A stretch of 34,027 nt of DNA from Acetobacteraceae bacterium AT-5844. GTDB lineage: Bacteria; Pseudomonadota; Alphaproteobacteria; Acetobacterales; Acetobacteraceae. The position numbers and the translations under genes are program-made. The DNA lies in contig JH599967.1 of the NCBI GenBank assembly GCA_000245075.1, positions 1 to 34,027 of the forward strand, in the 5' to 3' direction. The notes beneath the pieces were generated by a model. It did not search any database and was not told the origin of the DNA. It worked only from the letters and a program-made list of their open reading frames with translations. This document shows, piece by piece, positions 632 through 16,114 of this stretch (its first letter is position 1; every line of letters begins with the position of its first letter).

Positions 632-2428
632 ATGTCTCCCCAGACCCTTCAAGCCGCATCCGCCACCTCGTCGCTGACGGGTGCCGAGATTGTCCTGCGC
701 GCGCTGAAGGAGCAGGGCGTAGACGTAATCTTCGGGTATCCCGGCGGCGCGGTACTTCCGATCTACGACGCCATTTTCCAGCAGAATGCCATTCGCCACA
801 TCCTGGTGCGGCATGAGCAGGCGGCGGTGCATGCCGCCGAGGGCTATGCCCGCTCCACCGGCAAGGTGGGCTGCGTGCTGGTCACCTCCGGCCCCGGTGC
901 CACCAATGCGGTGACCGGGCTGGTGGACGCGCTGCTGGACAGCATTCCCATCGTCTGCCTGACCGGCCAGGTGCCCACGCACCTCATCGGCAACGATGCC
1001 TTCCAGGAAGCCGACACCACCGGCATCACCCGCCCCGCGACCAAGCACAACTATCTGGTCAAGGACATCACCAAGCTGGCCGAGACGGTGCATGAGGCGT
1101 TCTACGTCGCCCGCGCCGGCCGCCCCGGCCCGGTGGTGATCGACCTGCCGAAGGACATCCTGATCGGCAAGGGCCCCTATAAGGAGGCGCCGAAGGCCGA
1201 GCACCGCAGCTATCGCCCGCAGGTCGAGCCCGACATGGCGCAGGTCCGCAAGGCCGTGGCGATGCTCAAGGCCGCGAAGCGCCCCATCGTCTATGCCGGC
1301 GGCGGCGTCATCAATGCCGGCCCCGAGGCATCCGAGCTGCTGACGAAGTTCGTCCGCATGGCCGGGCTGCCCTGCACCAACACGCTGATGGGCCTGGGCG
1401 CCTATCCGGCCAGCGATCCGCAGTTCCTGGGCATGCTGGGCATGCACGGCACCTACGAGGCGAACCTCGCCATGCATGGGTGCGACGTGATGTTCAACAT
1501 CGGCGCCCGGTTCGATGACCGCGTGACCGGCAGGCTGAACGCCTTCGCGCCGAACTCGCTGAAGATCCACGCCGATATCGACCCGTCCTCCATCAACAAG
1601 AACGTCAAGGTCGAGGTGCCGGTGGTGGGCGACGCCGCCTCCGTGCTGCGCGCCATGATCGCGGCGTGGCAGGATGAGCCGGCGCAGCAGGACAAGCAGG
1701 CGCTGGCGACCTGGTGGCGCCAGATCGACGAGTGGCGCGGCAAGAAGTGCCTGGCCTATGTCCAGGAGAGCAAGATCATCAAGCCGCAGCACGCCGTGCG
1801 CCGGCTGTATGAGCTGACGCGCGAGAGCGGCAAGGAAACCTTCATCACCACCGAGGTGGGCCAGCACCAGATGTGGGCTGCCCAGTATTTCGGCTTCGAG
1901 AAGCCGAACCACTGGATGACCTCCGGTGGCCTGGGCACCATGGGCTACGGCCTGCCGGCCGCGATGGGCGTGCAGATCGCGCATCCGAATGCGCTGGTGA
2001 TCGACATCGCCGGCGAGGCCTCCATCCTGATGAATATTCAGGAGATGGCGACCCTCGCCCAGTACCGCCTGCCCGTGAAGGTCTTCATTCTCAACAACCA
2101 GTACATGGGCATGGTGCGCCAGTGGCAGGAGCTGCTGCATGGTGGCCGCTACTCTGAAAGCTACAGCGCCGCTCTGCCGGACTTTGTGAAGCTGGCGGAA
2201 AGCTTCCACGGCGTCGGCATGCGGGCGGAGAGCACGGACGACCTCGACCGCGTCATCAAGGAGATGATCGCCATCGACCGCCCGGTGATCGTCGACTGCG
2301 CTGTCGACGAGAAGGAGAACGTCTTCCCGATGATCCCCTCGGGCGCCGCGCATAACGAGATGCTGCTGGCCCCCGGGCAGGAAGGCGGCGTTGCCGGCGT
2401 CACGGATGAGGGGAAGGTACTGGTCTGA
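632..2428 (+). CDS. ilvB: Acetolactate synthase, large (catalytic) subunit
   Basis: This is the thiamine-diphosphate enzyme that condenses pyruvate with pyruvate or 2-oxobutyrate, the first common step of valine, leucine and isoleucine synthesis. The 598-residue product has the usual three-domain layout: TPP Pyr domain with the catalytic Glu62 in RHEQAAVHAAEG, a central FAD/transhydrogenase-like domain, and a C-terminal TPP-PP domain. The diphosphate motif, classically GDG, reads GEA here (residues 461-463), followed by the expected Asn and LNNQYMGMVRQW. An in-frame ATG at 593 exists, but the ATG at 632 starts the conserved part and has AGGAA upstream. It is followed 54 bases later by the small subunit gene, so the two are surely co-transcribed. 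It could also be named ilvI; the isozyme type cannot be told from sequence alone. Confidence 0.95.
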   Translation: MSPQTLQAASATSSLTGAEIVLRALKEQGVDVIFGYPGGAVLPIYDAIFQQNAIRHILVRHEQAAVHAAEGYARSTGKVGCVLVTSGPGATNAVTGLVDALLDSIPIVCLTGQVPTHLIGNDAFQEADTTGITRPATKHNYLVKDITKLAETVHEAFYVARAGRPGPVVIDLPKDILIGKGPYKEAPKAEHRSYRPQVEPDMAQVRKAVAMLKAAKRPIVYAGGGVINAGPEASELLTKFVRMAGLPCTNTLMGLGAYPASDPQFLGMLGMHGTYEANLAMHGCDVMFNIGARFDDRVTGRLNAFAPNSLKIHADIDPSSINKNVKVEVPVVGDAASVLRAMIAAWQDEPAQQDKQALATWWRQIDEWRGKKCLAYVQESKIIKPQHAVRRLYELTRESGKETFITTEVGQHQMWAAQYFGFEKPNHWMTSGGLGTMGYGLPAAMGVQIAHPNALVIDIAGEASILMNIQEMATLAQYRLPVKVFILNNQYMGMVRQWQELLHGGRYSESYSAALPDFVKLAESFHGVGMRAESTDDLDRVIKEMIAIDRPVIVDCAVDEKENVFPMIPSGAAHNEMLLAPGQEGGVAGVTDEGKVLV

Positions 2429-6926: not shown

Positions 6927-7820
6927 TCAGGTCAGCGCCAGCCGGATTTCCTTCACGAAGCGCCGTGCCAGCTCTGAGGGCGGCTTGCGCGTGGACCAGA
7001 AGGCCCAGGCGATAGAGGGAATGGCGGGCTCGAAGGGCCGCACCACGATATTCCGCCGGCCGGTATAATTGGCGGAGAAGGGGTCCACGACCGAGGCGCC
7101 CATCCCCGCCTCCACCAGCACGCAGGCGGTGTTGCAGTAGCGGACCTCGGCGTTGAAATTGAAGGGCTGCCTCGCCGCCTGGAAGGCCTCGCGCACCGCC
7201 GTGCCCATGCGGGTGTGCGCATCGAGGGCAATGAAAGTCTGGCCCTGAAGGTCGGCCGGCGTCACGACCTCCAGCTGCGCCAGCTTGTGCCCCACGGGGC
7301 AGACGCAGACCATCCGTCCTTCATAAAGCGGCTCCATCTCCAGCGTCGGCTGCGGCCCGAGGCTGAGCCCGAAGCCCAGGTCGGTCTTGCCGCTCTCGAC
7401 GCTGCGAATCACCTCGTCCAGCTCGCGGATGTCGAAGAAGGTCCGCAGGCGCGGGTGGCGGCGGGAGAAGGCGGTGAGCGCGGCGGGAATGACGCCATCG
7501 CCCAGCGGCGGCGTGCTCAGGATGCGCAGCCGGCTGACCTTCGCCTCCCGCAGATCCTGGAACCGGTCCTCCAGCGCCGCGTGCATGGCGAAGAGGGGCT
7601 CGGATTCCTCGTAGATGATGTTGGCGCCGTCGGTGGGGAAAAGCCGGTTGTTCAGCCGCTCAAACAGCGCAAAGCCAAGCTGCGACTCCATCTGCTTGAT
7701 GGCGTTGCTGACCGCGGGCTGGGACATGTTCATCATCTTGGCCGCGGCCATGGTGGTCTGGCCGCGGATCACCGCGCGTAAGATCTCAAGCTGACGAAGC
7801 GTGATGGCGGGTTTGTTCAT
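6927..7820 (-). CDS. LysR-family transcriptional regulator
   Basis: This is a 297-residue regulator with a typical winged helix-turn-helix at residues 8-66 (LRQLEILRAVI, then the recognition region MSQPAVSNAIKQMESQLG) and a periplasmic-binding-protein-like effector domain from about residue 95. It is transcribed divergently from the leuA leader, with the 7821-8223 region between them, so it may control its own promoter and perhaps leuA. LysR proteins of this kind often regulate neighbouring catabolic or transport genes, but no obvious target is adjacent. No clear Shine-Dalgarno precedes the ATG at 7820. The effector is unknown. Confidence 0.92.
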   Translation of the reverse strand: MNKPAITLRQLEILRAVIRGQTTMAAAKMMNMSQPAVSNAIKQMESQLGFALFERLNNRLFPTDGANIIYEESEPLFAMHAALEDRFQDLREAKVSRLRILSTPPLGDGVIPAALTAFSRRHPRLRTFFDIRELDEVIRSVESGKTDLGFGLSLGPQPTLEMEPLYEGRMVCVCPVGHKLAQLEVVTPADLQGQTFIALDAHTRMGTAVREAFQAARQPFNFNAEVRYCNTACVLVEAGMGASVVDPFSANYTGRRNIVVRPFEPAIPSIAWAFWSTRKPPSELARRFVKEIRLALT

Positions 7821-7986
7821 GGCCCGGGCAATTCATAGGCAGCGTCAATGGGAGACAGGTCCTTACCATAACCGCGATAGATGATTCCGCACCCTTTCCA
7901 TGCGCTGGCGTGGCTGCCGTTTCCCGCCCAGCACATTCCTCCCCTGTGCATCAGACGCAAATCATTGCTTGCGGGGGGCGTATGAC

Positions 7987-8115
7987 ATGCCTATCGTTAC
8001 CCGCATGAACGCTCCCGTGCGTGCCCCTCTGCTGCTGACCGGCGCTTCCGCCGGCGCCGCTGCGCGCGCGTTCTCTGGCCTCCTTCTCCTTCGACTTAGC
8101 CGCCCCTGGGCGTGA
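7987..8115 (+). CDS. leuL: Putative leu leader peptide
   Basis: This short reading frame, 42 codons from the ATG at 7987 (or 36 from the ATG at 8005), lies upstream of leuA. A G-rich stretch (GGGGGG, 7973-7978) could serve as ribosome site for 7987. The peptide contains CTG CTG CTG at 8029-8037 and, near its end, four consecutive Leu codons CTC CTT CTC CTT (8080-8091) plus another CTT (8095-8097). CTT is uncommon in neighbouring genes, which favour CTG. The frame ends at TGA 8113-8115. Leu-codon clusters in a short frame before leuA are the hallmark of leucine attenuation. The Leu run lies within a segment that can pair with the downstream control stem. It is inferred, not proven; a longer frame open from 7900 is possible. 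Confidence 0.65.
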   Translation: MPIVTRMNAPVRAPLLLTGASAGAAARAFSGLLLLRLSRPWA

Positions 8116-8214
8116 CGCCCGGCTGACCTGCCGGCATCGCTCAGGGGATACCCCTGGGGGCCTCTGAGGAAAGACCTCTGGCCTCCTTGTTGCCCGGCTA
8201 GAGTCAACGAAGGA
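8072..8214 (+). promoter_or_regulatory. Putative leucine-responsive leader with alternative helices, including sequestration of the leuA ribosome site
   Basis: Four segments can pair in chain. Segment 1 (8072-8083) overlaps the leader Leu codons. Segment 2 (8156-8169) complements segment 1 and equally segment 3 (8175-8186), because CTCTGGCCTCCTT occurs exactly twice (8073-8085 and 8176-8188). The end of segment 3 with the next bases (8184-8192) complements 8205-8214, which holds the leuA Shine-Dalgarno AAGGA (8210-8214); that stem has nine pairs and one bulged G. Two small hairpins lie between: 8108-8120, with the leader stop codon as its loop, and 8142-8156 (six pairs, ATA loop). Stalling at the Leu codons would mask segment 1, favour 2:3 and free the ribosome site. 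If instead the 2:3 stem followed by TTGTT acts as a terminator, the logic would differ. Confidence 0.6.
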
Positions 8215-8223
8215 ACGCACCCC

Positions 8224-9810
<1,587 letters not shown>

Positions 9811-16038: not shown

Positions 16039-16114
16039 GGGCGCTTAGCTCAGTTGGTAGAGCAGCTGACTCTTAATCAGTAGGTCCACGGTTCGAGCCC
16101 GTGAGCGCCCACCA
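16039..16114 (+). tRNA. tRNA-Lys (anticodon CTT)
   Basis: The 76 bases fold as a complete cloverleaf: acceptor stem GGGCGCT paired with AGCGCCC, D stem GCTC/GAGC with AGTTGGTA loop, anticodon stem GCTGA/TCAGT (one G-T closing pair) with loop CTCTTAA giving anticodon CTT, T stem CACGG/CCGTG with loop TTCGAGC, discriminator A at 16111 and an encoded CCA at 16112-16114. It reads AAG, the dominant Lys codon in this GC-rich genome. No copy of its 3' end was noticed elsewhere in the window, so there is no sign of an island integrated at this gene. Confidence 0.97.

Follow-up and report, generated by a model that had tools for sequence, protein, structure and literature searches.

How is leuA, the gene for 2-isopropylmalate synthase, controlled when it is preceded by a short reading frame rich in leucine codons and no terminator-like run of T residues can be found? 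This question is raised by the leuA leader of Acetobacteraceae bacterium AT-5844, which lies in a stretch of 34,027 nucleotides (contig JH599967.1, positions 1 to 34,027 of the forward strand) that is referred to here, at its full length, as the window. A preliminary description of this DNA had proposed a leucine attenuator that hides the ribosome site of leuA, with a 13-base repeat and four pairing segments as its working parts. The analysis presented here gives moderate confidence that a leucine-responsive translational attenuator does precede leuA, and suggests that the sensing codons themselves form its anti-Shine-Dalgarno strand. The preliminary description named the right gene, amino acid and likely level of control, but the segments that it held responsible were the wrong ones. 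At the level of sequence, the comparisons below establish a conserved leader, a covarying hairpin and matched complementarity between a leader strand and the start region of leuA. The features concerned are the following.

8224..9810, forward strand: leuA, 2-isopropylmalate synthase (NF002087, 814.9 bits against a cut-off of 729; TIGR00973, 687.2 bits against a cut-off of 598.7)
8005..8115, forward strand: leader open reading frame of 36 codons when counted from the inferred start, with GLLLLRLSRPWA and the stop at its end
8080..8097, forward strand: putative sensing codons CTC CTT CTC CTT CGA CTT (Leu Leu Leu Leu Arg Leu), with no CTG
8087..8101, forward strand: left strand of the predicted base stem, in which the leucine codons act as anti-Shine-Dalgarno (15 pairs, -18.3 kcal/mol)
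8196..8214, forward strand: right strand of the base stem, pairing with 8087-8101 and containing the leuA Shine-Dalgarno sequence AAGGA (8210-8214)
8103-8112 with 8138-8147, inner stem 8117-8123 with 8130-8135, forward strand: conserved hairpin spanning the leader stop, with covariation
7969..7997, forward strand: probable promoter, TTGCGG (7969-7974), a 17-base spacer and TATCGT (7992-7997)

The four leucine codons reported earlier at 8080-8091 (CTC CTT CTC CTT) are indeed in frame, in an open reading frame that ends at 8115, but the run continues with CGA CTT to 8097, a part that had been overlooked. The final codons of the leader read GGC CTC CTT CTC CTT CGA CTT AGC CGC CCC TGG GCG TGA. Across 15 open reading frames of the window, leucine is encoded by CTG in 72.5% of cases, by CTC in 16.0% and by CTT in 5.0%, and CGA makes up 1.1% of the arginine codons. 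CTG is avoided among the last sensing codons, while three CTG codons stand earlier in the leader (8029-8037). This use of the rarer CTC and CTT in place of CTG would fit ribosome stalling.

Unbiased support for conservation comes from 80 loci that were chosen by their LeuA protein alone. Of these, 79 carry the element, which consists of CTTCGACTTA, four bases, CCCCTG, a loop and CAGGGG before leuA, and which was found far outside the family when loci were read. The 13 fixed letters of CGACTTA-N4-CCCCTG show no mismatch in 62 of the 79, one in 14 and two in 3; at the 80th locus the sequenced DNA reaches no further than 49 bases upstream of the protein match, so that its leader is not visible. 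The element is also present in all 16 genus loci. The preliminary description had looked to relatives for both the leucine run and its complementary segments: a leucine-codon leader before leuA is kept in the genus loci and in the 79 chosen by LeuA protein, whereas within the genus the segments fare no better than slid controls.

Most other comparisons used 139 loci drawn from 201 with a leuA motif found by script, after removal of 12 with more than three mismatches to CGACTTA-N4-CCCCTG and of 50 near-duplicates (8-mer overlap above 0.6); a distance limit of 60-330 excluded no locus of the 201. Thirty loci (L191-L220) had been fetched by pattern, and 13 of these sit in the set of 139. Family and non-family members were separated by locus number. 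CTT is present in 137 and CGA in 128 of the 139 leaders, counts that are biased, as is the fixed spacing, because the selecting pattern holds CGA CTT A and fixes the distance to CCCCTG. The codon preceding CGA is a leucine codon in 127 leaders, and the leader stop lies 5 (71 leaders) or 7 (63 leaders) codons past CGA in 134. At 8092-8098 and at the equivalent position in relatives, CGACTTA is conserved beyond what the base stem seems to require, even though its partner near the start codon varies; it may have a second function.

The best conserved structure is the hairpin over the leader stop, which begins just 3' of the last leucine codon and had been missing from the earlier list of parts. 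It was assessed in an alignment (A2) to which 68 leaders were offered, namely 44 of the 47 from outside the family (three were removed by hand), every fourth family member and the window; three more were removed for stem or length, leaving 65 leaders, 41 of them from outside the family. The ten-pair stem was found in 95.0% of cells compared with 30-57% for slid versions, both sides had changed at 7 of the 10 pairs, and 0/500 shuffles reached any of the five observed values.

The base stem was examined by a swap test, in which the strand from -20 to +10 around the start of CGACTTA was set against the last 45 bases before leuA, either its own or swapped. Own duplexes were stronger than swapped ones in the full set (-18.9 vs -15.9 kcal/mol, n=139, z -11.9), outside the Acetobacteraceae (-21.0 vs -16.2, n=47, z -10.1) and within the Acetobacteraceae (n=92, z -7.9), with 0/5000 permutations doing as well in each case. 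Removal of the 13 pattern-fetched loci left z at -10.6 (126 loci) and -8.3 (35 loci outside the family), again with 0/5000 permutations each, and when swaps outside the family were matched for GC content the own duplex beat the median in 38/43. Against shuffled start regions, the segment with the leucine codons passed the 5% level in 44/139 leaders, compared with 9/139, 12/139 and 9/134 for three other segments. Outside the family, at least 8 perfect consecutive pairs were found in 15/47 own duplexes versus 3.5% of swapped ones. Own runs of at least 7 perfect pairs occurred in 56/139 leaders at a median of 9 bases from the start codon, and 43 of the 56 were within 15 bases of it. In an alignment of 17 genus sequences including the window (A1), the base stem was paired in 88.5% of cells (slid versions 24-53%).

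In the window, the minimum-energy fold of 8080-8235 consists of the base stem around the conserved hairpin plus a second hairpin (z -3.27, 0/200 shuffles), and a longer fold of 7987-8240 gave z -2.75 (2/200 shuffles). The whole Shine-Dalgarno sequence is paired in the shorter fold, and a T run 3' of the conserved hairpin is found in 5/139 leaders, so that hiding of the ribosome site, as proposed earlier, remains the likely output. A stalled ribosome was modelled as a 31-base block on CGA/CTT and compared with a control block 35 bases upstream; for this and for the tests of Shine-Dalgarno cover, Shine-Dalgarno positions were assigned crudely, as the longest piece of TAAGGAGG. In the window the predicted probability that the Shine-Dalgarno sequence is unpaired was 0.01 when free, 0.33-0.40 with the stall block and 0.01 with the upstream block. 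The corresponding means for the Acetobacteraceae (n=92) were 0.25, 0.44 and 0.22, with a rise of more than 0.2 in 38 leaders for the stall block versus 7 for the upstream block.

From these patterns we infer that the leader is translated, that ribosomes stall in it, the direction of regulation, and that control is translational rather than transcriptional. In the proposed mechanism, the leader mRNA would probably start at the leader ATG (8005). When leucine is plentiful, the ribosome would run past the leucine codons, terminate at the stop and depart; the freed strand 8087-8101 would then pair with 8196-8214, enclosing the conserved hairpin, and leuA would be poorly translated. When leucine is scarce, the ribosome would stall on the rarer CTC and CTT codons and keep 8087-8101 unpaired, and leuA would be translated. 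Such a design would be economical, with a single strand as both sensor and lock.

The proposed start of the mRNA depends on the probable promoter. Its TATCGT box ends 7 bases 5' of the leader ATG, and the leader mRNA is therefore probably leaderless. A leader start at 8005 is likelier than one at 7987, since the latter position falls inside the probable promoter. Among the Acetobacteraceae, 44/92 leaders have TTG-N16..18-TAnnnT placed 5-9 bases before an in-frame ATG, compared with 0/184 in out-of-frame tests. A general and stricter consensus scan of 7750-8400 reported no promoter, which argues against the promoter assignment. Leaderless starts are not rare in Alphaproteobacteria, with 375 leaderless mRNAs reported for Caulobacter (PMC4117421).

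Several results weigh against translational attenuation by the sensing codons. The swap test restricted to the genus, which is low in power, gave z -1.6 (270/5000 permutations), and the base stem varies so little in A1 that 102/500 shuffles do equally well. Within the Acetobacteraceae there was no real excess of duplexes with at least 8 perfect pairs (8/92 own vs 6.8% of swapped). The best own duplex covers at least 3 Shine-Dalgarno bases in 86/139 leaders, and swapped strands do the same (660/1107) because CUUC-like leaders encounter GAAG-like start regions in any case; the specific extra pairing therefore lies mostly beside the Shine-Dalgarno sequence. Among the 47 non-family leaders, the unpaired probability was 0.24 when free, 0.37 with the stall block and 0.34 with the upstream block (a rise of more than 0.2 in 14 vs 9), so the block test hardly separates the two there. 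The start codon is not opened by the block (mean of the 139 leaders, 0.52 to 0.48-0.51), and that of the window closes under it, from 0.65 unpaired to 0.11-0.37. If the leucine strand is withheld, the Shine-Dalgarno sequence is able to pair with the second repeat copy. A ribosome on the stop codon has almost the same opening effect (mean 0.38; 0.41 in the window); the switch must therefore rest on dwell time, and fast release would be needed. Lastly, mutations in the leuA leader of Streptomyces coelicolor are reported to have had effects inconsistent with classical attenuation (PMC1262725). The folding models thus back translational attenuation only in part.

Transcription attenuation is an unlikely alternative, in which the hairpin spanning the stop would act as a terminator whose left arm is blocked when a ribosome stalls at the last CTT. 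That this hairpin is the best conserved structure and stands close behind the last leucine codon would suit such a mechanism, as would the T runs that follow it in L070 (19 pairs, then eight T), L035 and L062. However, at least 5 T among the 8 bases 3' of the hairpin were found in just the 5/139 leaders, and the window is not one of them. The lack of a terminator-like T run in the window, correctly noted in the preliminary description, led to rejection of an intrinsic terminator there. In addition, a terminator would not account for the matched pairing between leader strands and their own start regions, and a terminating ribosome would cover the left arm too. The L070 hairpin (2005-2069, reverse strand) has the look of a textbook terminator, and the T runs of all three leaders give the impression that the element turned into, or already was, a terminator of transcription.

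It is also conceivable, with a low probability, that the untranslated mRNA is lost through Rho-dependent termination or RNA decay and that the primary switch is at the mRNA level. GC-rich leaders, mostly lacking T runs, may suit a Rho-type mechanism, but the stem at the start region suggests that initiation is the step affected first. Less probable again is control by a regulatory protein or ligand that binds the conserved CTTCGACTTA or the hairpin, or by the product of the divergent gene upstream of the leader:

6927..7820, reverse strand: LysR-type regulator gene, directed away from the leader

In favor of a bound protein or ligand, CGACTTA and CCCCTG are unchanged in 62 of the 80 loci chosen by LeuA, beyond what pairing with a varying partner would need. 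Against it, the reading frame, the leucine codon before CGA and the position of the stop are all kept, which points to translation. The LysR gene adjoins leuA in 2/101 relative loci, both on one contig (about 1.5 kb of flank per locus, a few shorter), and was ruled out as a conserved neighbor of leuA.

The four-segment switch of the preliminary description would use the second repeat copy (8184-8192) to hide the Shine-Dalgarno sequence, and several points of sequence speak for it. The 13-base repeat CTCTGGCCTCCTT is exact at 8073-8085 and 8176-8188, and a repeat of at least 13 bases was found in 2/1000 dinucleotide shuffles of 7987-8224 and in 2/284 real 238-base windows of the contig, the leader being one of these two. 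Segments 8156-8169, 8184-8192 and 8205-8214 are able to pair as claimed, AAGGA at 8210-8214 is a good Shine-Dalgarno sequence for leuA, and the helix between segments 3 and 4 (duplex of 8184-8192, -9.1 kcal/mol) appears in folds that omit the leucine-codon strand. However, the second copy is missing in 17/17 genus relatives compared, where the longest shared stretch is 5-10 bases, and the three helices did no better than slid controls in A1, with 43% of cells paired for 3:4 (slid 28-47%), 71% for 1:2 (42-78%) and 65% for 2:3 (31-70%). In the folds, segment 4 pairs instead with the neighborhood of segment 1, and segments 2 and 3 fold together into a hairpin of the window species:

8156-8162 and 8166-8169 with 8175-8178 and 8180-8186, forward strand: second hairpin, corresponding to the 2:3 helix (fold of 8080-8235)

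This hairpin (8156..8186) contains most of the second repeat copy and is not conserved, being no better than slid versions in A1. The base stem is twice as strong in the window (-18.3 vs -9.1 kcal/mol). The four-segment switch is highly improbable.

The distribution of the leader was examined at increasing distance from the window. A DNA search with the leader and the start of leuA matched 27/38 genomes, own genome included; it covers the leader in each of the 16 other members of the genus (70-86% identity) and in 4/5 other family members, and several distant matches are limited to the start of leuA. In the class, 49 of the 54 non-window matches (strict E 1e-40) were examined, and 34 of these 49 leuA loci have the element by pattern. 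Five of the other 15 (G170, G160, G270, G241 and G231) match model R1 just upstream of leuA, and ten show no element by pattern or by model R1. A stricter pattern was found in 63/385 class genomes, and its backward control gave one match each in two genomes (G210 and G386). Model R1 matched 95/289 class genomes, with a single match each except in two genomes, and 23/150 genomes of the phylum, 21 of which are in the class (own genome included) and 2 of which are weak matches (E 4e-4 and 1e-3). Within the sampled phylum the element is essentially alphaproteobacterial. A loose 20-base pattern matched 109/120 genomes in the family, a count that was not used because its backward control also matched often.

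The genes behind the leader were examined in 67 loci (L191-L257) found by pattern or model, which are the best-scoring rows and in some cases the same place twice. The script found the leuA motif downstream in 54 of these best-scoring 67 loci. Among the other 13, a 2-isopropylmalate synthase frame is seen in 11, with a variant DTTMRDGEQ in 7 and another LeuA type in 4 (L196, L197, L253 and L257, near 1500 in each); the remaining two are L191, an apparent chance match, and L215. The L197 gene passes TIGR00970, the yeast-type LeuA family (722.2 bits against a cut-off of 697.4), and L196, L253 and L257 were assigned by eye. One leader therefore precedes two LeuA families, which suggests gene replacement behind a kept leader or transfer of the leader.

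Tentatively, and with less confidence than is placed in the mechanism at the window, these data may indicate a class-wide, uncatalogued leuA leader of Alphaproteobacteria whose sensing codons double as the anti-Shine-Dalgarno strand, which is often translated from a leaderless mRNA, which stands before two LeuA families, and which either arose apart from the actinobacterial LEU element or shares an ancient origin with it. If this is true, starvation-controlled translation initiation would rank among the principal forms of leucine control. Teaching usually presents amino-acid attenuation as the termination of transcription; here, translational control of leuA appears to be used by many members of a large class of bacteria. 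Given the covarying hairpin and the matched stem, the mechanism can be tested with a small number of paired mutations in an alphaproteobacterium that grows in culture, and model R1 offers a means to find such leuA leaders and unannotated leader peptides.

Parallels to several known systems can be drawn. The leu operon attenuator of the E. coli type (Rfam Leu_leader) likewise has leucine codons in a leader reading frame before leuA and has a terminator as its output, whereas the leader described here has no Rfam match at the gathering score and rarely a T run (the 5/139 leaders). In translational attenuation of the cat/erm type, a leader ribosome stalled by a drug keeps from pairing the strand that would otherwise hide a downstream ribosome site; here too a stalled leader ribosome would open the ribosome site, but through starvation at sense codons. 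Another parallel is the actinobacterial LEU element, which was predicted by Seliverstov et al. 2005 (PMC1262725) to have a leader peptide with leucine codons, a base stem between the leucine-codon run and the leuA Shine-Dalgarno sequence, and a pseudoknot or alternative hairpin; there the authors, citing the S. coelicolor mutants, thought classical attenuation unlikely and favored a protein regulator. By that description, the two share the pairing of a leucine-codon strand with the leuA Shine-Dalgarno sequence and the lack of the usual attenuator parts. This pairing is present in the window, although cover of the Shine-Dalgarno sequence is no higher across the leaders than with swapped strands. 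The two differ in that the LEU stem is described as enclosing a pseudoknot or alternative hairpin, whereas one conserved hairpin over the leader stop is enclosed here (a pseudoknot was not searched for). They also differ in phylum, the LEU element being from Actinobacteria, and they are likened by description, not by sequence. By analogy, then, the alphaproteobacterial leuA leader may work like the LEU element in outline. Among Alphaproteobacteria, the trpL transcript of Sinorhizobium meliloti is leaderless and is similar in encoding a biosynthetic leader peptide of this class, but it is a tryptophan attenuator that serves trp genes (PMC10117765). An ilvB leader peptide is mentioned for Alphaproteobacteria in another paper (PMC1273637). 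A literature search found no published alphaproteobacterial leuA leader, and Vitreschak et al. 2004 or Lopatovskaya et al. 2010 may already describe some.

The best named relatives of the window LeuA are from Pseudoroseomonas / Roseomonas species, and the nearest relative by leader is L002. Two further features belong to the wider window and to the conserved hairpin, respectively.

16039..16111, forward strand: tRNA gene, the sole Rfam match in the window at the gathering score
8140-8147 with 8151-8158, forward strand: possible alternative partner of the right arm of the conserved hairpin (duplex -14.7 kcal/mol)

At the gathering score, Rfam gave no leader family in the window and no match in 12 relative loci, and a search of 7940-8260 returned two matches at chance level (E 2.7 and 4), so that a curated Rfam leader family was ruled out for this leader. 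The right-arm alternative was not stronger than shuffled sequences in other alphaproteobacteria (-5.7 vs -6.2, n=44), and was stronger in the Acetobacteraceae (-10.8 vs -8.9, n=89). One relative (G002) has two leuA leaders of equal match score, L016 on contig 109 and L028 on contig 24, which perhaps represent a duplicated leuA or an assembly effect.
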